This document shows, in pieces, positions 26,311 through 33,745 of a DNA stretch of 64,000 bases (position 1 is its first letter; each line of letters starts with the position of its first letter). The DNA is from Bacteroidota bacterium (GTDB lineage Bacteria; Bacteroidota; Ignavibacteria; Ignavibacteriales; Melioribacteraceae). Under the pieces are notes generated by a model that saw only the letters and a list, made by a program, of their open reading frames with translations, had not been told where the DNA came from and ran no database searches. A program made the position numbers and the translations under genes. The stretch lies in contig JAHISP010000002.1 in NCBI GenBank assembly GCA_018818165.1, positions 1-64,000 of the forward strand. Reading direction: 5' to 3'.

Positions 26311-26355
26311 GGTTTTTTCAAAATTCATAACCAACTTTAATTTTCCAAACTGGTG
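26311..26355 (-). mobile_element. Remnant of a RAYT gene end plus half palindrome
   Basis: The plus strand here is AGGTTTTTTCAAAATTCATAA followed by a sequence matching, with few differences, the block at the 3-prime end of the RAYT gene (about 32956-32995). On the minus strand it encodes KIKVGYEF-stop, against KINVDYEF-stop in the intact RAYT. The GAGG half-palindrome next to it is the same as that beside the RAYT stop. It sits exactly at the brnT breakpoint. About 35 bp of similarity, so the assignment is tentative. Confidence 0.5.
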
Positions 26356-26373
26356 ATAGTTTTTATCTGGAGT

Positions 26374-26768
26374 TTATCCAACCCAATTTTCTATTTTAAT
26401 ACCATCAAATCTATTAAATTCTGTAACATTTCTTGTTACCATAATCAATTTGTTTGCAACAGCAGTTGCGCCAATTAATAAATCAAAATCACTTATTATT
26501 TTGCCTTTCTTTCTTAGCTTCGCTTTCTCTTTTGCAAATATTTTAATTCCGTCAAAAATTGGTAGAATAGATATTTGGTCAGTAAATTTTTCAACTATTG
26601 CCAGATTCTTTTCTGGAAACTGACTTTTTTCGGCACCATAAACTAATTCTGCTAAAGTTATTTCTGAAATTGCACAATTTTGAAGACCAATTTTTTCAAT
26701 TTTTTATCTAGATGATACAAACCCTTGAAAAAATAAATACAAATATTAGTATCTAATAAATACTTCAT
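26374..26768 (-). pseudogene. vapC: VapC-type PIN-domain toxin with a one-base frameshift
   Basis: On the minus strand the gene begins MKYLLDTNICIYFFKGLY, overlapping the antitoxin stop as TAATG. After about codon 24, at a run of six A (GATAAAAAATTG), the frame changes. In the other frame the protein continues with ISEITLAELVYGAEKSQ, ISDFDLLIGATAVANKL and TRNVTEFNR to a TAA at 26374. All PIN acidic residues are present. The length is 395 bases, one short of a whole number of codons, so one A appears to be lost. With seven A the product would be 131 residues, the family's normal size. This could be a true mutation, phase variation or a sequencing error. Confidence 0.85.
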
Positions 26769-27010
26769 TATAATTCTTCTATAACTCTGTTATTAAAACG
26801 TGATTTTTCTATATCGTCAATAATATCTTCGGCTGTTCTTATGTCTTGCCAAGCACCGAAAATATTTTTAATATTTGATTTTGATTTTGGTTTGGAATTG
26901 ATTGATTTAGTTAATTTAATAATTAAATTCTTTTTTGAATCGACATCTAAATTTTCAAGAATCCCAAAATACTTTTTTAGTGTTCCATTATTTAAAGCAA
27001 GATTTCCCAT
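26768..27010 (-). CDS. Antitoxin partner of the VapC-like toxin
   Basis: This protein of 80 residues has a Lys-rich middle and a C-terminal part, IFGAWQDIRTAEDIIDDIEKSR, that resembles the toxin-binding tail of VapB-like antitoxins in Bacteroidota. The stop overlaps the toxin start (TAATG), the usual coupling. The N-terminal DNA-binding type is not clear to me. The gene is intact while its toxin is frameshifted. Confidence 0.7.
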   Translation of the reverse strand: MGNLALNNGTLKKYFGILENLDVDSKKNLIIKLTKSINSKPKSKSNIKNIFGAWQDIRTAEDIIDDIEKSRFNNRVIEEL

Positions 27011-27118
27011 TAATATTTCCTTCCTAAAACTTAATCAATGCCATTGTTTTTACACTTCAATTTACTTGTTTTCGTTATCGCTGTCAAATGTAATTGTAAC
27101 CAAATTTTTCAATAAATC

Positions 27119-27155
27119 AAACTGCTGAGGTTTTTGGAAACCTCGGCAGTTTTTA
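27119..27155 (-). terminator. REP-like hairpin acting as terminator
   Basis: AAACTGCTGAGGTTT pairs with AAACCTCGGCAGTTT around a short T/G loop with one mismatch, just after the stop of the DUF6261-like gene. The core GAGGTTTTTGGAAACCTCG is nearly identical to the core of the palindromes at 28.7, 29.05 and 32.93 kb, so it is probably a member of that family. T runs allow it to terminate. Confidence 0.7.
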
Positions 27156-27159
27156 AGTC

Positions 27160-27879
27160 CTAAACTATAGGTTCTGGTTTCTTTTTCCTTTTTTTCACTA
27201 TAATGTTATTGTCGTCAATTATTTGGGTAGTGGTACGCGTTAACTCGCCATATTTTGTTTCATCCACCTGTATCATAGCCCTTAAATAAACAACCAATTT
27301 TTCGTTAATTATTACTACAACTTCCTTTTTAATTGCACTAGCATTTTCCTTTGTTCCCTCTTCCGCTTTTTCCTCTTCGTAATTAACACTTGCAGCCTCA
27401 AACTCGGTTTGTGCCGCAGTAAGTTCCATAATAAGCTGATTTAAACCTGGAAGTGCCGCAATTGATGGTTGCAAACTTGTGTTTGAAAATTCAATAAGTA
27501 ACGATGCAACAAGCGAACTTTCTGTTGCATAGCTTTGGTTTATAAGTTCAAGACCAAAATGCTCAAATACTTTATCAACTTCTTGAGCGGCAGTTTTAAT
27601 TGCTAAATCTGGATGATGCATAAAACCTAAAATTATGTAATATACTGAGCGGATTTTTTCGTCACGTATCTCGTCCTTCTCCTCAAGATCACTTTCGGCT
27701 TTTATTCTGTTTATGGCACCGGTTAGTATTTCGTTTTTGGGTTTTAGCAAATTGAATATTCCCGTTAAATGCGTATCACTGCTCCAATCGGTTTTTTCGT
27801 ACTCAGCAATAATTCTGCCAGCTACTGCGTTTACTTCTGTTGTTCTACTAATTGATGTTAGGTTGTTTAGTGGATTCAT
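27160..27879 (-). CDS. DUF6261-like helical protein
   Basis: This soluble protein of 239 residues is almost entirely alpha-helical by sequence. It has a glutamate-rich coiled segment at about 160-190 and a highly basic tail (VKKRKKKPEPIV). The overall pattern (MNPLNNLTSISRTTEVNAVA, an AAQEVDKVFEHFGLEL middle) resembles the Bacteroidota DUF6261 family, whose role is unknown. I am not certain of the match. The gene stands alone. Its upstream region holds six 41-bp palindrome repeats 120-365 bases before the start, which may regulate it. Confidence 0.65.
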   Translation of the reverse strand: MNPLNNLTSISRTTEVNAVAGRIIAEYEKTDWSSDTHLTGIFNLLKPKNEILTGAINRIKAESDLEEKDEIRDEKIRSVYYIILGFMHHPDLAIKTAAQEVDKVFEHFGLELINQSYATESSLVASLLIEFSNTSLQPSIAALPGLNQLIMELTAAQTEFEAASVNYEEEKAEEGTKENASAIKKEVVVIINEKLVVYLRAMIQVDETKYGELTRTTTQIIDDNNIIVKKRKKKPEPIV

Positions 27880-27998
27880 AAAACCCTCCTGTTTAGTTTG
27901 TTAAATAATTGGTTAGTGTTACTATTATTAGTGAGACAATCTCACTATTTAAAAACATTACTTTTTTTGTTTATAGTTAAAAAGCTTAATTCACTTGC

Positions 27999-28244
27999 AA
28001 TGTACAAAGTATATTATGCCAAAAATCAATTTTTCATGTAACGTACAAAGTACATTAGCCCAAAAACCAATTTCCCTTGCAATGTACAAAGTACATTAGC
28101 TCAAAAACCAATTTCTTTTGCAATGTACAAAGTACATTAGCTCAAAAACCAATTTCTCTTGCAATGTACAAAGTACATTAGCCCAAAAACCAATTTCTCT
28201 TGCAATGTACAAAGTACATTAGCCAAAAAATCAATTTTGCTTGT
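27999..28244. repeat. Array of six 41-bp tandem repeats with palindromes
   Basis: Units start at 27999, 28040, 28081, 28122, 28163 and 28204, exactly 41 bases apart. Each begins with the 17-bp palindrome AATGTACAAAGTACATT, followed by a 24-base spacer like AGCCCAAAAACCAATTTCTC plus TTGC. The spacers are conserved too, so it is a tandem array and not a CRISPR. The first and last units are the most diverged. The period is not divisible by three, so it is non-coding. Four helical turns between centres would place all palindromes on one face of the DNA. Confidence 0.95.
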
Positions 28245-28647
28245 AATATTTATATTTATATGTTTTAGAAACTTGAATTTGCTACAATTGAGATGATAAG
28301 AGAGGTTCCAGAAATTTGACACATTTACTTTAGGATACGACCCGAATGGATAGTAATTGGTGGAATTAGAATAATATAATTTTTCAAAAATGCTCACGTG
28401 CCTCAACTAAACAGTTTTTGTTCTTAATAGTTATGTTAATCCGTTTATTCAAAGCTAATTATTATATTTTAAGTTTTCAACTAAAGATTGTAAATAATTA
28501 ATTTTTAAGAAATGTTGAAAATCTTAACTTGGGTAGCATTAAGATTCCCGCAATTTGTCAATAATAGCCATATTCCCTTACAAAATATTGCTTTTGGATT
28601 ACAAAATTGCGGGAATCTATTTGGGAATAATTTAATTTGAGGAAAGC
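28245..28647. other. Gene-free stretch with one 15-bp inverted repeat
   Basis: This is AT-rich DNA. AGATTCCCGCAATTT (28542-28556) and AAATTGCGGGAATCT (28604-28618) are perfect inverted repeats 47 bases apart, and TTGGG/TTTGGG flanks extend the similarity. There is no supported gene. A minus-strand open frame running from 28406 into the repeat array has no coding features. Confidence 0.6.
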
Positions 28648-28790
28648 AAACCTCCAAGGTTTGCACATCTTATTGTTGTTTTTCAAACATTTAATTCCAT
28701 TCTCAAAACTATTTTACAATGCTTAAAACCTTGGAGGTTTTTGCACTATAAAGACTCAAACCTTCGAGGTTTTGGAAACCTCGAAGGTTT
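28648..28790. repeat. REP-like paired-palindrome element, copy 1
   Basis: The outer stem is AAACCTCCAAGGTTT (28648-28662) with AAACCTTGGAGGTTT (28726-28740), enclosing about 63 bases (CATCTTATTGTTGTTTTTCA and onward). The inner hairpin AAACCTTCGAGGTTT (28758-28772) with AAACCTCGAAGGTTT (28776-28790) has a three-base loop. The spacer between stems is TTGCACTATAAAGACTC. The same layout recurs at 28943 and 33544. Confidence 0.9.
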
Positions 28791-28792
28791 TT

Positions 28793-28930
28793 TAGGATGC
28801 TTCTATTATTTTTATTTCTTCGGGAGTTAGGTTGTATAGTTCGTAAACTAGTTTATCTATCTCTTGCTCCATCGCGCTTGTGTCTGCGTTTGGATTATCT
28901 TTTTTAGCGGTTATGATTTGATTGAACTTG
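28793..28930 (-). pseudogene. Vestigial duplicate of the type IIG gene tail
   Basis: On the minus strand this encodes QIITAKKDNPNADTSAMEQE and ends in ELYNLTPEEIKIIEAS before a TAA. It matches the last 42 residues of the intact gene that stops at 29087. Of about 130 bases, about 14 differ, and most changes are silent or conservative. It is placed exactly 295 bases from the true tail. It is a remnant and has no start or upstream frame. Confidence 0.88.
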
Positions 28931-28942
28931 ATTCAATGCTGT

Positions 28943-29085
28943 AAACCTCCAAGGTTTGCATATCTTATTGTTGTTTTTCAAACATTTAATTCCATTCTCA
29001 AAACTATTTTACAACACTCAAAACCTTGGAGGTTTTTGCACTGTAAAGACTCAAACCTTTGAGGTTTTGGAAACCTCGAAGGTTT
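28943..29085. repeat. REP-like paired-palindrome element, copy 2
   Basis: It has the same structure as the copy 295 bases upstream: outer stem 28943-28957 with 29021-29035, inner hairpin 29053-29067 with 29071-29085 (one mismatch, CTTTG for CTTCG). It ends one base before the stop codon of the type IIG gene, so it is also likely its transcription terminator. Confidence 0.9.
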
Positions 29086-29086
29086 T

Positions 29087-32000
29087 TTAGGATGCTTCTA
29101 TTATTTTTATTTCTTCGGGGGTTAGGTTGTAAAGTTCGTAAACTAATTTATCTATTTCATGTTCCAGTGCGGTTGTATCTGCGTTTGGATTGGCTTTTTT
29201 GGCGGTTAGGATTTGATCGACAAGATTTTCAATTACAGTTTTGTCTTTAATCATTACCCTTACAATTGGTAATTTCGAAATATAGACTGTTTTGAGCCTT
29301 AACCTTCCTCGTTTTTTCTCTGACCCTATTACTGGACATTTTTTGCTCAAATAAAACCATATTAATTTACTATTTAATACTCCTAATAAAAATTTATCTT
29401 CTAAGGGTATTACAAACAATGTTGCATTTGGATAATAATTTTCATAATCAAGCGTGAACCTTGGCTCTAAAGCAATATCAGGATAAAGAATTTTAGGTTT
29501 CTCAAATATATCATAATAAGAGCATGATCTTAATTCATACCATTTTTTCCCCTTATCAGATCTATTGACTAGATTTTCTTTAAATCTAATCAAGTGGTTA
29601 TATATTTCTGGGAATTGTTCAATTTCAATCCCAATTTTAGCTGTAATTAAATACTTGCCAGCAAAATTACTGGAATATTTCCTAACATCATTTCCATTTA
29701 AAAAAGGTTTAATAACTTCCTTTGATTTGGGATATAGTTGCACAAAATAATCTCGTTCTGATTGGTTAATTATAAATGCTTCATTAAATCCGGTTTTTAT
29801 TCCAAATTTTATTTGTCCTTTTGTATACTCGTCTAACGAAATACTATTTTTATACATCTTTTGGAAAATTAAATTTTGATTATCGTTTAATAAATTCCAA
29901 TTAGAAGAATCCGAATTAAATTGCTTAAATGATTGCCTATTTTCAATGACCTCAATATTTAGGCTTTCAAAATTTAGATTATCTATTTCCGAATATAATA
30001 TTGGCAAAACGTTAATATTATCGTCAATTGAATTTGAGAACATAAAAATCATTGGGAATGTAGAGGCATCTTCAAAGACAGGTAACTCACCAAAATCAAT
30101 TATATTATGGATATAAAGTTTACTCAGAAATAACCGAAGCTCAACACCATAATTTGAACGTATAAATTTGTTTGAAGTTATGAAAGATATTTTAGCAAAC
30201 TCTTTAGAAATTTGTACTGCCCTTTCATAGAAATAAGTATAAATATCACCCGTGCCATTAAATACTAAATATGAATTTTTAAAATAGTTCTTCATATTTG
30301 TAATTTCATCACCCCTGATATAAGGCGGATTTCCAATAACAACATCAAAGCCAATAAATTCCCCTTCATCATCTAGTACTTCGGGGAATTCAAAACGCCA
30401 TTCAAAAGCATCTTTAAAAAGCTTTGCGTACTCATTTTCTTTTTGCTTTATGCTTACACTAAGTTTTTCAATTTCGTGTTCAAGTTTTAGCTGTTTTTCT
30501 TTAGTTTTTTCATTATCCGCCCCAAATAACTCACTATTTAAATTGTGCAAATCACTTGCCAATTTTGTTAGCTTCTCCTTTTCTTTCCTTAAAGGGTCAG
30601 AAGCAAAACCAATAAATTTATTTCTAATCTTATCAATAGAATCTTTCAACTCCTTACGAGCAATTCTATCGTTAACATTTTTATATGCTGTTACATACTG
30701 CTTATAATCTTCTAATGTTCTTTTATCACCTCTAGTAAATTTAGTTTCAGTAACATCAAACCTACTAACAAGCGAATTACCCTGCTTAATGTTTATATCA
30801 ATATTAGGCAGTGTTTGCAACTCTTTGTATCCGTTTGAATCAGAATAGTAAGCGTTTTTTAATAACTCAATCCACAAACGCAGGCGACATATATTAACGG
30901 AGTTAGGGTTTATATCAACTCCAAAAAGAGAGTTTTCAATAATGGTTTGTTTTTCGTGAAAAATTGTTTCCTGAAGTTTTTGCAAATGTGGTATCACATT
31001 ATTTTTATTATTAAGGTGATATTCAAAAAATTCTTCCGTCTCAGAATCGGTAATAATTAGTTCGTCATTTTCTATAGTAATATTATAATTCTGTAAACGG
31101 CTACCGTCACAATAAGTAAGCACACCAAGTTCCGATTTAACAACAATAATTTCGTTAAGAGCAGAAACAAGAAAATGACCTGAGCCAACTGCGGGGTCGC
31201 AAATTTTAAGACTGTTAATAATTGAATTTGCTTTTTCTCGCCCATCTTTTGAAATATCAATTTCAGTTTTTAGTTCTTCAAAATCTTTATAATTAACATT
31301 AAGTGTATCATTAAATTTTTGCACAACTGCACGTCGTATTGTTTCGCGTGCCATATACATTGTAATAAAACCCGGTGTAAAGAAGGAGCCTTCCTTGTAA
31401 CCATTTATCTTTTCAAAAATAAGTCCAAGTACAGAAGCAGAGATAAGCGTTTTCCCTTCTTCCTGGATATCGTTTCCTGTACTTTCTGTAGCAAAATCGT
31501 AAGCATCAAGAAATTGTAAAAGATAAGTTAATGAAGAAAGTGTTCCACTTCTTTTTTTGTTTAGGTTATCCTTTAATTTTGTTTGCGCTAAAATGGATAA
31601 GCCCGCATGGTCTTGTAATTGCGAGATTCTAATAGAATCACGTTCAAGTTTACTTATTTCAAAAAGCGAACTATTTAGATAAGGAACAAATTGATATTTA
31701 CTTTTAATTTCTTCATCCCGTTCATCAATACTTAATGCAAGTACTTTATGGAATAATTCGTAAAGGTGGTCATATTCTGTTAGCTTAGTGGCATCAAGGA
31801 ATTTATAATCTTTGTTTCCTTTGTGATATGTTAGTAACTGTCCTTCAAGAAGTTTTAAGAAAAGTATTCTGTTAATCCAAGTAATATTTAGTTCGAGGGC
31901 AAGGCTATAAATTTGTTCTTCTGTTGTTTCGCCAAAATTTTCTCTATTACTTATGTATGAAAGTGAATCTTCTGTTTTAAGAATGTTAATTGTATTTTCA

Positions 32001-32833
32001 AGTAGTGAACCTGATTCACGTTTGCTTTCTTCTTTACGGCTAATTACTTTTTTACTTCCATCCTTTGTTTCTTCAAGACCTATAATATGTAATAGTTCGT
32101 TATAAAATTGTTTATCCAACGAGTTACTATCATTTGCGAAAGATTCTTTAAGTAGATGTGCTCTGCTGAAAACCTTAAATAGTGGTATTAATTTTTTATC
32201 ATCATCTAATTTATTTTGATAATCATAAAGATCGAAGAAAGTGAATGAAATATCATCTTGCAGATTATCAAGAAATGGTTTAGCAATTTCATTGTAAAAA
32301 TGGTTTGTGTTACTACTTACCTTTTGGTTTGTCTTCCAGCTTTCGTAATTAGCTTTAAGTTGTGTGTTTTTATAAAATAGTTTTTCAAACAATTGAGCAT
32401 CAAAAATAAACCACTGAAAATTGTTAGTGATAATAATGTTTTTTATTTCATCATTTTTCCCTTCAATCCTTTCTCTAAGGTAATAAAGGACTGCCTCATG
32501 CATAGCTTTTTTGTTTATATCATCTTTACGTACCATCTCAAAATTGTTTGATGGCTTTTTGGTTTCAATTATAATTCCAACTTTTTTCGTTTTCCCAAGA
32601 TAAACCGCTAGATCAGTCTTCCCTTTTGTGTTAACATTAAATTCAGAATAAAAAGTGTTTAGTAGAAAATCGCGAACAAGATTTTTATTGTATTCTTCAC
32701 TTTCCTTTTCATTAATGCTATGGAGTAGAGTTATTAATTGTAGTTTGAAATTATCAAATTCCGCTCTAAGAGGTTTTTGCTTTCTATAAAGTTTATTTAA
32801 CGCTTTTTGGGGTTCAAGAATGTTTAGTGCCAT
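29087..32833 (-). CDS. Type IIG restriction-modification enzyme (nuclease-methyltransferase fusion)
   Basis: This single-chain protein of 1248 residues combines restriction and modification. The N-terminal PD-(D/E)XK-like nuclease has TDLAVYLG with D74, then E90-T-K92 in IIIETKKPS. A helical connector follows. The adenine methyltransferase has motif I DPAVGSGHFLVSA (D546 onward) and catalytic NPPY at 835-838. A charged coiled coil (about 715-800) separates the two. The C-terminal 250 residues form the target-recognition domain. Eco57I/MmeI-like enzymes cut away from their site and methylate it. No separate specificity subunit or BREX genes are near. The tail has been duplicated downstream with a palindromic element. 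Confidence 0.88.
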   Translation of the reverse strand: MALNILEPQKALNKLYRKQKPLRAEFDNFKLQLITLLHSINEKESEEYNKNLVRDFLLNTFYSEFNVNTKGKTDLAVYLGKTKKVGIIIETKKPSNNFEMVRKDDINKKAMHEAVLYYLRERIEGKNDEIKNIIITNNFQWFIFDAQLFEKLFYKNTQLKANYESWKTNQKVSSNTNHFYNEIAKPFLDNLQDDISFTFFDLYDYQNKLDDDKKLIPLFKVFSRAHLLKESFANDSNSLDKQFYNELLHIIGLEETKDGSKKVISRKEESKRESGSLLENTINILKTEDSLSYISNRENFGETTEEQIYSLALELNITWINRILFLKLLEGQLLTYHKGNKDYKFLDATKLTEYDHLYELFHKVLALSIDERDEEIKSKYQFVPYLNSSLFEISKLERDSIRISQLQDHAGLSILAQTKLKDNLNKKRSGTLSSLTYLLQFLDAYDFATESTGNDIQEEGKTLISASVLGLIFEKINGYKEGSFFTPGFITMYMARETIRRAVVQKFNDTLNVNYKDFEELKTEIDISKDGREKANSIINSLKICDPAVGSGHFLVSALNEIIVVKSELGVLTYCDGSRLQNYNITIENDELIITDSETEEFFEYHLNNKNNVIPHLQKLQETIFHEKQTIIENSLFGVDINPNSVNICRLRLWIELLKNAYYSDSNGYKELQTLPNIDINIKQGNSLVSRFDVTETKFTRGDKRTLEDYKQYVTAYKNVNDRIARKELKDSIDKIRNKFIGFASDPLRKEKEKLTKLASDLHNLNSELFGADNEKTKEKQLKLEHEIEKLSVSIKQKENEYAKLFKDAFEWRFEFPEVLDDEGEFIGFDVVIGNPPYIRGDEITNMKNYFKNSYLVFNGTGDIYTYFYERAVQISKEFAKISFITSNKFIRSNYGVELRLFLSKLYIHNIIDFGELPVFEDASTFPMIFMFSNSIDDNINVLPILYSEIDNLNFESLNIEVIENRQSFKQFNSDSSNWNLLNDNQNLIFQKMYKNSISLDEYTKGQIKFGIKTGFNEAFIINQSERDYFVQLYPKSKEVIKPFLNGNDVRKYSSNFAGKYLITAKIGIEIEQFPEIYNHLIRFKENLVNRSDKGKKWYELRSCSYYDIFEKPKILYPDIALEPRFTLDYENYYPNATLFVIPLEDKFLLGVLNSKLIWFYLSKKCPVIGSEKKRGRLRLKTVYISKLPIVRVMIKDKTVIENLVDQILTAKKANPNADTTALEHEIDKLVYELYNLTPEEIKIIEAS

Positions 32834-32929
32834 TTTCCTATTTTAACTATTTTATAAAGTATTGCTAAAATAGCAAAATTTAATTTAATGGTGAACTAAA
32901 TATATTAAAAGTAATCTACATGAAGATTC

Positions 32930-32962
32930 AAACCTTCGAGGTTTTGGAAACCTCGAAGGTTT
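32930..32962. repeat. REP-like palindrome at the RAYT 3-prime end
   Basis: AAACCTTCGAGGTTT (32930-32944) pairs perfectly with AAACCTCGAAGGTTT (32948-32962), loop TGG, with a T run after it. It lies three bases from the RAYT stop codon. The left flank TGAAGATTC is repeated at the other end of the gene (33624-33632). Confidence 0.92.
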
Positions 32963-32965
32963 TTT

Positions 32966-33520
32966 TCAAAATTCATAATCAACATTAATCTTACTATCTG
33001 TTAAGAACTTAATCATTTGCTCTTCAGATTGAAAGAAAGAGTTTACTTCTTTAAGATTAGTTAAAGTTCCTCTACGCATATTTAGCAAATCCTTTGCGTT
33101 AGAGAATTCCCAATCTGAAATGGTTTGTACCAGTTTTGCCTTAACTGGATTTTCAAGAATATATTTTATTATCCATATAAAATAATGTTCATCTGTAATT
33201 GGTTTGCTTTTAGTTTTACTTTGAAACAAAGTACCACTTCTGTTAAACTTTTTGTTAATCGATTTTACATAAGAGTTTAATAGTGCAGAAATAAATTCGG
33301 AAATTAATAAATCTGTAGTTTCCTGTTTTACAAAAAGATGAAAATGGTTTGGCATTAAACAATATGATAAAACTTCTATTTGATACTTTTCTTTATAATA
33401 TTTGAGTCTTTTTAGAAAATAGAGATAACTTTCTTTGTCAAAAAATATATTACTTTTATTAGCGCCTCGATTATATAGATGGTGATAGGTATTTTGGAAG
33501 TATTCCCTTGGCTTATCCAT
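32966..33520 (-). CDS. RAYT (REP-associated tyrosine transposase)
   Basis: This protein of 184 residues belongs to the IS200/TnpA_REP group. The HUH motif is H59-F-H61 in MPNHFHLF, preceded by YHHLYNRGA, the family's N-terminal signature. A later helix ending in ENPVKAKLV holds candidate nucleophile tyrosines (Y113, Y121). GTLFQSK follows the family pattern. RAYTs nick and join single-stranded DNA at REP palindromes. GGGAG precedes the ATG. The gene is flanked in direct orientation by related palindromes (32930-32962 and 33633-33666), and others cluster within 7 kb, consistent with its being the source of these elements. There is no second ORF, so it is not an IS605 composite. Confidence 0.9.
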   Translation of the reverse strand: MDKPREYFQNTYHHLYNRGANKSNIFFDKESYLYFLKRLKYYKEKYQIEVLSYCLMPNHFHLFVKQETTDLLISEFISALLNSYVKSINKKFNRSGTLFQSKTKSKPITDEHYFIWIIKYILENPVKAKLVQTISDWEFSNAKDLLNMRRGTLTNLKEVNSFFQSEEQMIKFLTDSKINVDYEF

Positions 33521-33543
33521 TTTTCTCCCTTATTGTTATTACC

Positions 33544-33666
33544 AAACCTCCAAGGTTTGTAAATCTTATTGTTGTTCTTCAAACATTTAATCCCATTCTC
33601 AAAACCTTGGAGGTTTTTGCATGTGAAGATTCAAACCTCCGAGGTTTCTGAAAACCTCGGAGGTTT
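33544..33666. repeat. REP-like paired-palindrome element upstream of RAYT
   Basis: The outer stem AAACCTCCAAGGTTT (33544-33558) with AAACCTTGGAGGTTT (33602-33616) has a shorter enclosed spacer than the 28.6 kb copies. The inner hairpin AAACCTCCGAGGTTT (33633-33647) pairs with AAACCTCGGAGGTTT (33652-33666). The stem sequence has changed on both arms compared with other copies (TCC/GGA for TTC/GAA), so pairing is kept while sequence drifts. It also ends the M16 transcript. Confidence 0.9.
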
Positions 33667-33745
33667 TTTAGAATTAAGTTTTATGAAATCTTGTATGTTT
33701 AATTATTTCAATAAAGCATATCAAATTGATGGCAATATTTAATTA

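Follow-up and report, generated by a model that had tools for sequence, protein, structure and literature searches.

Repetitive extragenic palindromic sequences (REPs) and REP-associated tyrosine transposases (RAYTs) make up the closest described systems to the one reported here. In biochemically studied REP-RAYT systems, a GTAG tag guides recognition and the choice of cut site (PMC8266576). RAYTs have been divided into subclasses, several of which are accompanied by GTAG REPs, and one of which, the Bacteroidetes subclass 2.6, is accompanied by untagged "atypical secondary structures" (PMC6006769). REPs elsewhere have also been located downstream of genes (PMC3733652). Here we analyzed the first 64,000 nucleotides (nt) of contig JAHISP010000002.1 (the window; contig C92), which belongs to the draft genome (4.88 Mb, 105 contigs) of an Ignavibacteria-like bacterium (GCA_018818165.1). 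The window holds an intact RAYT gene flanked by long palindromes whose relatives are dispersed through the same genome, and we regard the whole as very probably a tag-less REP-RAYT system (REPtron), one in which GTAG is missing.

The RAYT open reading frame (ORF) is intact, as the initial annotation had stated (Table 1), and its product is assigned to Y1_Tnp by Pfam (E 4.5e-9). Across six aligned homologues, the HUH histidines and the tyrosine are invariant, NHFH and YILENP are invariant or nearly so, and H59 and Y120 lie 61 residues apart. For an AlphaFold model based on a shallow alignment of six sequences (mean predicted local distance difference test score 73), the top PDB fold match was 4er8, an E. 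coli-type TnpAREP with its REP hairpin (E 8.3e-6, template modelling score 0.54), with IS200-type transposases ranking behind it. A RAYT profile searched against PDB sequences returned 4er8 as the sole match at E ≤ 0.1 (E 0.0029), and a single-sequence search of the PDB returned no match. RAYT relatives are encoded in eight records, most of them named Ignavibacteria, Ignavibacteriales or Melioribacteraceae. A second close RAYT lies on contig C22 of the same genome, 83% identical and frameshifted near its end, and Y1 genes in this genome amount to nine matches in all, other Y1 genes among them.

The palindrome is a 33-base unit in which AAACCTYCGAGGTTT and AAACCTCGRAGGTTT, arms of 15 nt, are separated by a loop of 3–4 nt, and it flanks the RAYT gene on both sides, again as first annotated. 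Folded as single-stranded DNA, the five short hairpins of the window reach −9.8 to −16.8 kcal/mol, and for each of them 0 of 200 shuffles were equally stable. With a covariance model built from 23 palindrome copies, matches at E ≤ 0.001 were confined to 27.1–33.7 kb of the window, and an Rfam scan of 25–35 kb found no family reaching its gathering threshold. The initial annotation had listed at least six related elements within 7.4 kb and none elsewhere in the window. Five short hairpins and three long-loop stems stand, whereas the element at 26.3 kb is not a whole one: it consists of half a palindrome and a RAYT tail, the latter diverged from the last ~40 nt of the gene (34/40 positions identical). 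Likewise, the absence elsewhere in the window holds at E ≤ 0.001, but the family is not a local one.

Table 1 Features of the RAYT locus in the window
Feature	Position	Strand	Evidence or remark
RAYT-type Y1 transposase gene, 184 aa	32966-33520	minus	intact ORF; motifs NHFH (H59, H61), FQ, YILENP (Y120)
Palindrome, 3 nt 3' of RAYT stop	32930-32962	no strand	hairpin, covariance model, folding
Palindrome 5' of RAYT, outer stem of two-stem leader	33633-33666	no strand	hairpin, covariance model, folding
Second, long-loop stem of two-stem leader (33543-33672), directly 5' of RAYT start	33544-33616	no strand	
Palindrome, 1 nt past PglX-like gene stop	29053-29085	no strand	two-stem copy with long-loop stem 28943-29035
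Palindrome	28758-28790	no strand	forms, with long-loop stem 28648-28740, the other two-stem half of the duplication
Diverged palindrome, 7 nt past DUF6261 gene stop	27119-27152	no strand	both arms changed
295-bp tandem duplication	28648-29220		copies 28648-28925 and 28943-29220; two-stem element and PglX-like gene 3' end
Duplicate of last ~40 codons of gene 29087-32833	28796-28925	minus	115/130 nt identical
Orphan copy of RAYT 3' tail adjoining half a palindrome	26311-26352	minus	
Eco57I/PglX-like methylase-restriction gene, 1248 aa	29087-32833	minus	neighbour; context, outside the RAYT unit

Across the draft genome, at least 109 rows at E ≤ 0.1 merged over both strands into at least 57 places, a lower bound since scoring covered 150 of the 5397 first-look candidates. 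This corresponds to ~1 palindrome per 86 kb, and at such a density it is no surprise that the remainder of the window has none. Ten of the 57 places fall in the 10 kb surrounding the close RAYTs (the window gene and that on C22), against 0.12 expected, a count that includes the ends of the RAYT units and the tandem copy and for which the 10-kb distance was picked post hoc; without unit ends and tandem copy, 3 extra of 51 places remain (p 0.0002). Clustering at close RAYTs is therefore real, though partly built in. The stems vary in sequence yet keep pairing, as noticed from the window at the outset: 13 cells changed on both sides in the 23-copy model set, against a shuffle mean of 1.8, and 58 in a larger set, against a shuffle mean of 13.3 and a maximum of 22 in 500 shuffles. 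The larger set comprised 58 distinct sequences from 100 sites (56 from this genome, 44 from relatives), with the partial palindrome at C54:59453 excluded. Pairing within a single arm is possible in 95.5% of cells, and double changes within arms numbered 4 (shuffle mean 2.0, maximum 6); for want of such within-arm covariation, a pair of small hairpins, each formed by a single arm, was not favoured as the structure under maintenance.

The link between enzyme and palindrome was evaluated in 79 genomes of the family, and flanks were compared for a set of 36 RAYTs (a sample of 50 match rows from the family plus named relatives; from 39 loci, L063 was dropped as the same locus as L043, and L072 and L076 as shorter than 120 aa). 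Hairpins scoring ≥12 stood on both sides of 20/36 RAYTs, and a matching hairpin pair on both sides of 17/36, compared to 0/150 random 540-nt stretches in each case; a hairpin scoring ≥14 was present on some side of 27/36 RAYTs and of 7/150 random stretches. For the six whole-length named matches (L043–L048), one of which has a single internal stop (L043) and another a disrupted frame (L048), a palindrome was found 3' of the RAYT in all six and also 5' in five. Moreover, hairpin similarity followed protein similarity (Mantel r 0.713, a value reached in 0 of 5000 permutations) when the 34 of 36 RAYTs that have a hairpin in their flanks were compared, and RAYT lineages tend towards a flanking hairpin of their own: AAACCTCCGAGG for the window RAYT, AACCTTGAAGG, AAAAGCCCAACTT and CCATCTT types for others, and further ones at NHVH proteins. 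Because of the matching flank pairs and this correlation, we read the locus as a co-inherited REP-RAYT system, in which the enzyme appears to co-evolve with its palindrome as a single mobile system. The original suggestion of a RAYT amid its own palindromes is thus strengthened by flank pairs, co-divergence, covariation, and clustering.

Several observations weigh against this reading. On the NCBIfam model for REP-associated tyrosine transposases (NF047646), the RAYT scores 70.2 bits and its C22 copy 73.4, below the cut-off of 80. No GT[AG]G or CGTC tag was seen by eye within 11 nt of any of 27 palindromes from 11 loci, on either side or in either orientation (one of 28 rows, which spans two palindromes, was left out). 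Nineteen of the 36 RAYTs lack a matching pair within the 260 nt searched, and vertical descent alone would yield some correlation between protein and palindrome. The size of the covariation effect is uncertain because the sites counted had either been picked out by a model of this hairpin or gone into building one, and because shuffles ignore relatedness. Finally, the palindrome (E ≤ 1e-6) occurs in 6/11 genomes with a close RAYT (E ≤ 3e-40) and in 20/68 others (p 0.16), and one genome with many such palindromes (G074) has a best RAYT flanked by another sequence. These counts do not support a strong RAYT-palindrome link by presence alone. The five close-RAYT genomes without the palindrome have RAYTs that are 46–52% identical, three of them beside hairpins of other sequence (G022, G053, G076) and two without a matching pair (G013, G014). 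Two more favourable groupings were set aside: 6/6 vs 20/73 genomes (p 0.0008) as too generous, the RAYT of G074 bearing another palindrome, and 5/5 vs 21/74 (p 0.003) as circular, the five having been picked by their flanking palindromes.

This loose link suggests that, in some genomes, palindromes outlive, precede or do without a close RAYT. It also bears on an alternative in which a different enzyme or RAYT lineage did the spreading and the window RAYT unit merely carries or attracts the palindromes. Other Y1 genes are at hand in this genome, and genomes without a close RAYT have palindrome rows, counted on both strands, of 36 (G063), 20 (G001), 19 (G036), 12 (G078) and 9 (G003). Palindromes without their RAYT had been named beforehand as evidence against the association, and the 20 of 68 family genomes in question provide this in part; loss of the RAYT would leave the same picture, however, and the lineage-specific matching flanks and co-divergence run counter to a foreign origin of the palindromes, which we consider unlikely. 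Within one relative, a palindrome mosaic resembling bacterial interspersed mosaic elements is repeated twice after a secreted-protein gene (L092, G030:C19, 1430-2490), its parts being of the GTAGGGAC...GTCCCTAC type, the window type, and the GGGGACGA type.

The palindromes also show a marked bias in gene context. Forty-six of the 57 places are intergenic, 10 lie within called ORFs and 1 at a contig end. The intergenic places comprise 32 codirectional and 14 convergent gaps and no divergent one, while random placements evaluated with the same simple ORF caller were divergent in 31% of cases (25 of 116 gaps; 12 stretches of the same genome). A stop codon lies within 50 nt of 34/46 intergenic palindromes, against 25% of non-divergent random placements. 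In the window, the elements had been described as lying within a few bases of stop codons, which is correct for three palindromes (starting at 27119, 29053 and 32930, at 1–7 nt) and not for the others. From this it had been proposed that they work as terminators; in the corresponding alternative, they would be intrinsic terminators of the preceding genes and the RAYT a bystander. The stop-proximal positions, the avoidance of divergent gaps and the 15-bp hairpins would all suit such a role. U-tracts are mostly absent, however, with ≥5 T on the gene-sense strand in 11/38 stop-adjacent cases, and terminator-like sites in 26.0–34.2 kb are at chance level (4 vs 3.2 expected; 3 of the 4 on these elements). 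Terminators would also leave aside the eight copies inside ORFs and the matching hairpin pairs and co-divergence of RAYTs. The terminator proposal is thus not supported, and we consider this explanation highly improbable.

Copies inside genes follow a pattern of their own. Eight of the 10 palindromes within ORFs sit in paralogous proteins, where translation in one shared frame turns each into a 12-residue loop (KTSEVFKNLGGF, for example), and paralogues without a palindrome have a shorter stretch at this position. A type IX secretion sorting domain was found in the one such paralogue that was scanned whole. A second palindrome-like stretch, VAQISNLC or nearly so, is present in 7/8 paralogues; its DNA in L003 is GTAGCACAGATTAGTAATCTGTGCTAC, which resembles a GTAG double-foot REP. 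Paralogues with two different in-frame palindromes in neighbouring loops were seen on C15, C41, C68, and C105 (L118, L119, L123, L122). The eight copies may descend from few events through gene duplication. The ORFs around the remaining two palindromes (104 and 118 aa) are possibly spurious.

Three elements of the window had been described as two-stem units of fixed layout, exemplified at 33.54 kb by a palindrome plus a second stem with like arms and a 43-nt loop. The layout is present in all three, but two of them are halves of a single tandem duplication (92% over 278 nt) and hence leave two independent cases, alike at 118/151 aligned positions and both on one contig. The genome-wide search proposed for this layout, run as a DNA search, found the whole unit restricted to the same contig. 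The element is best read as a copied RAYT leader, the two independent copies hinting only faintly at an elaborate two-stem REP unit as first suggested.

At some genes the 3' end is present twice with a palindrome in between, as at the PglX-like gene and at C31:113739 (59 nt, 93%). On C22, the 3' tail of the RAYT itself is duplicated around a palindrome, giving tandem RAYT tails, and at L047 a whole RAYT unit lies between gene 3'-end copies (62 nt, 97%). Direct repeats of ≥40 nt flank 10/56 palindromes of this genome compared to 10/232 random points (p 0.0014), several of the former sharing an event, and 8/55 in relatives, four of them from one array, compared to 19/244 (p 0.12). A search of the 79 genomes with the last and first 45 residues of the RAYT yielded four orphan pieces of the gene, namely three tails (a pair at C22 and a single one in G002) and one head (G019:C75), along with a head at a contig end (G075) and a longer 3' fragment (G043); these are too few to call a tail bias. 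The orphan head (G019:C75:1940-2779; L064, L208) covers residues 1-70 and directly precedes a complete RAYT, with a palindrome before each, and represents a further case of partial tandem copying at a RAYT unit.

These palindromes between gene-end copies hint faintly that the units still move. A more specific scenario strikes us as doubtful: the RAYT lineage would still be mobile and would move in a mode undescribed for Y1 transposases, inserting next to a stop codon so that the last 60–200 bases of the neighbouring gene end up copied on the far side. Tandem REPIN clusters that include flanking sequence are known (PMC3116915), so the gene-end copies may be ordinary tandem duplication at palindromes. 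When an empty site 3' of the M16 peptidase gene was sought by synteny, nothing at the nine loci compared in relatives matched the genes that come next in the window. If the scenario were true, RAYT palindromes would be makers of gene 3'-end duplications and orphan RAYT tails, which would bear on the spread of REPs, a process described as poorly understood in the REP-RAYT papers (PMC8266576). In another alternative, replication slippage and template switching alone would have spread the palindromes and kept them palindromic, the cluster at the RAYT reflecting tandem duplication. The 295-bp tandem copy, the tandem RAYT tails on C22, and the excess of direct repeats at palindromes of this genome would fit; dispersal to many contigs and RAYT-specific sequence types would be left unexplained, and we regard this as a very remote prospect.

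Further repeats were encountered in this genome. On C61 (46570-49534, L156) and C76 (4311-7380, L155), different genes are set apart by array-like repeats of ~330–370 bp that are 90–92% alike and contain long-loop versions of the palindrome arms. An integron-like cassette array, with genes each followed by a palindrome, was considered and dropped, because the best integrase match (C85) is both sub-cut-off and broken and the C61 and C76 repeats measure ~330–370 bp. Short ORFs of the GIY-YIG type (PF01541, E 6.4e-18; 86 aa) break up this integron-integrase gene (C85:104874-106200, L219; TIGR02249, 259.6 bits, cut-off 265), and CCCGTGAGATA stands inverted at their borders; this 11-mer has five exact sites in the genome, all on C85, and the ORFs could be a small mobile GIY-YIG element. 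In the window, a 41-bp tandem unit of 6.1 copies with a TGTAC-AAA-GTACA core (27990-28237) lies 5' of the DUF6261 gene. A reading frame at 26340-26767, broken after ~20 codons and with an 80-aa ORF upstream (26768-27010), resembles, by its sequence, a PIN-domain (VapC-type) toxin gene.

How the REP-RAYT system would operate, including the part of the window RAYT as maker of the copies, we infer by analogy. The RAYT would be a single-strand nuclease and ligase of the Y1 HUH kind that recognises the long hairpin into which the two 15-nt arms fold when the DNA is single-stranded. Tyr120 would make the cut next to this hairpin, and the enzyme would then join the ends at another place. Of the palindromes, those on either side of the gene would represent the ends of its unit, and the scattered ones copies spread by this RAYT or a relative. 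Insertions would survive where they are least harmful, past a stop codon or, in rare cases, within a loop of a secreted protein with the reading frame kept.

Compared with described systems, the locus has the features of a REPtron in the broad sense, namely a Y1 HUH enzyme with Y---NP, a RAYT flanked by dispersed palindromes, and a palindrome of its own per lineage; lacking the GTAG/CGTC tag, it is filed as a broad-sense RAYT-palindrome system, outside the tagged REP families. With TnpAREP/RAYT and GTAG REPs (PMC2817692, PMC6006769, PMC8266576; 4er8) it shares the Y1 HUH enzyme, the Y---NP motif, a gene between inverted palindromes, copies downstream of genes, and lineage-specific palindromes. 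It differs in the missing tag, in copy number (usually >100 for REPs vs ~57 places here, a lower bound), and in an enzyme only distantly like TnpAREP (profile E 0.0029). IS200/IS605 (subclass 1.1), with Y---Q and near-identical copies, was rejected given YILENP and a closest own-genome copy at 83% identity. TnpAY1 subclass 2.6 (PMC6006769) is alike in its neighbouring phylum, its untagged structures copied elsewhere in the genome, and its length (179 vs 184 aa). Membership was nonetheless rejected on motifs (NH[LIV]H, WQ and YIH[QN]NP vs NHFH, FQ and YILENP) and on HUH-Y distance (median 82 vs 61 residues). By motifs and spacing, the window RAYT instead resembles subclass 2.1, or TIRYT (PMC6006769; PMC3733652), with which it shares NH[YF]H, FQ and a short HUH-Y distance; that subclass is reported without REPs and has a longer C-terminus (median 238 aa), whereas the window RAYT has palindromes and a shorter one.

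Among the palindromes themselves, Pseudomonas REPINs (PMC3116915) are alike in their symmetric hairpin of inverted halves with compensatory changes, in tandem clusters that include flanks, and in a cluster beside each RAYT; here, however, the halves are 3–4 nt apart in most copies, with no evidence for a separate structure in either half. An 18-nt repeat of Caldithrix abyssi, aAACCGTTgaAACGGTTt (PMC5317091), is likewise REP-like, has AACC...GGTT ends, and is rare between divergent genes; it is shorter, and the available text of that paper names no transposase for it. Searches of literature text with three 11-mers of the palindrome gave matches that, by title and among those listed, look like chance hits in unrelated work, the main text of the RepRanger paper contains neither "Ignavibacter" nor "RAYT", and the available text of the literature searched held no description of this system in Ignavibacteria, from which we do not claim its absence from print. 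Overall, the locus is a genuine and well-supported case of a known kind of system, REP-RAYT, here in a tag-less form. A tag-less lineage whose palindrome tracks its protein provides material for studying how the enzyme finds its cut site without a tag, and the differing RAYT-palindrome pairs within one bacterial family represent ready-made specificity swaps.

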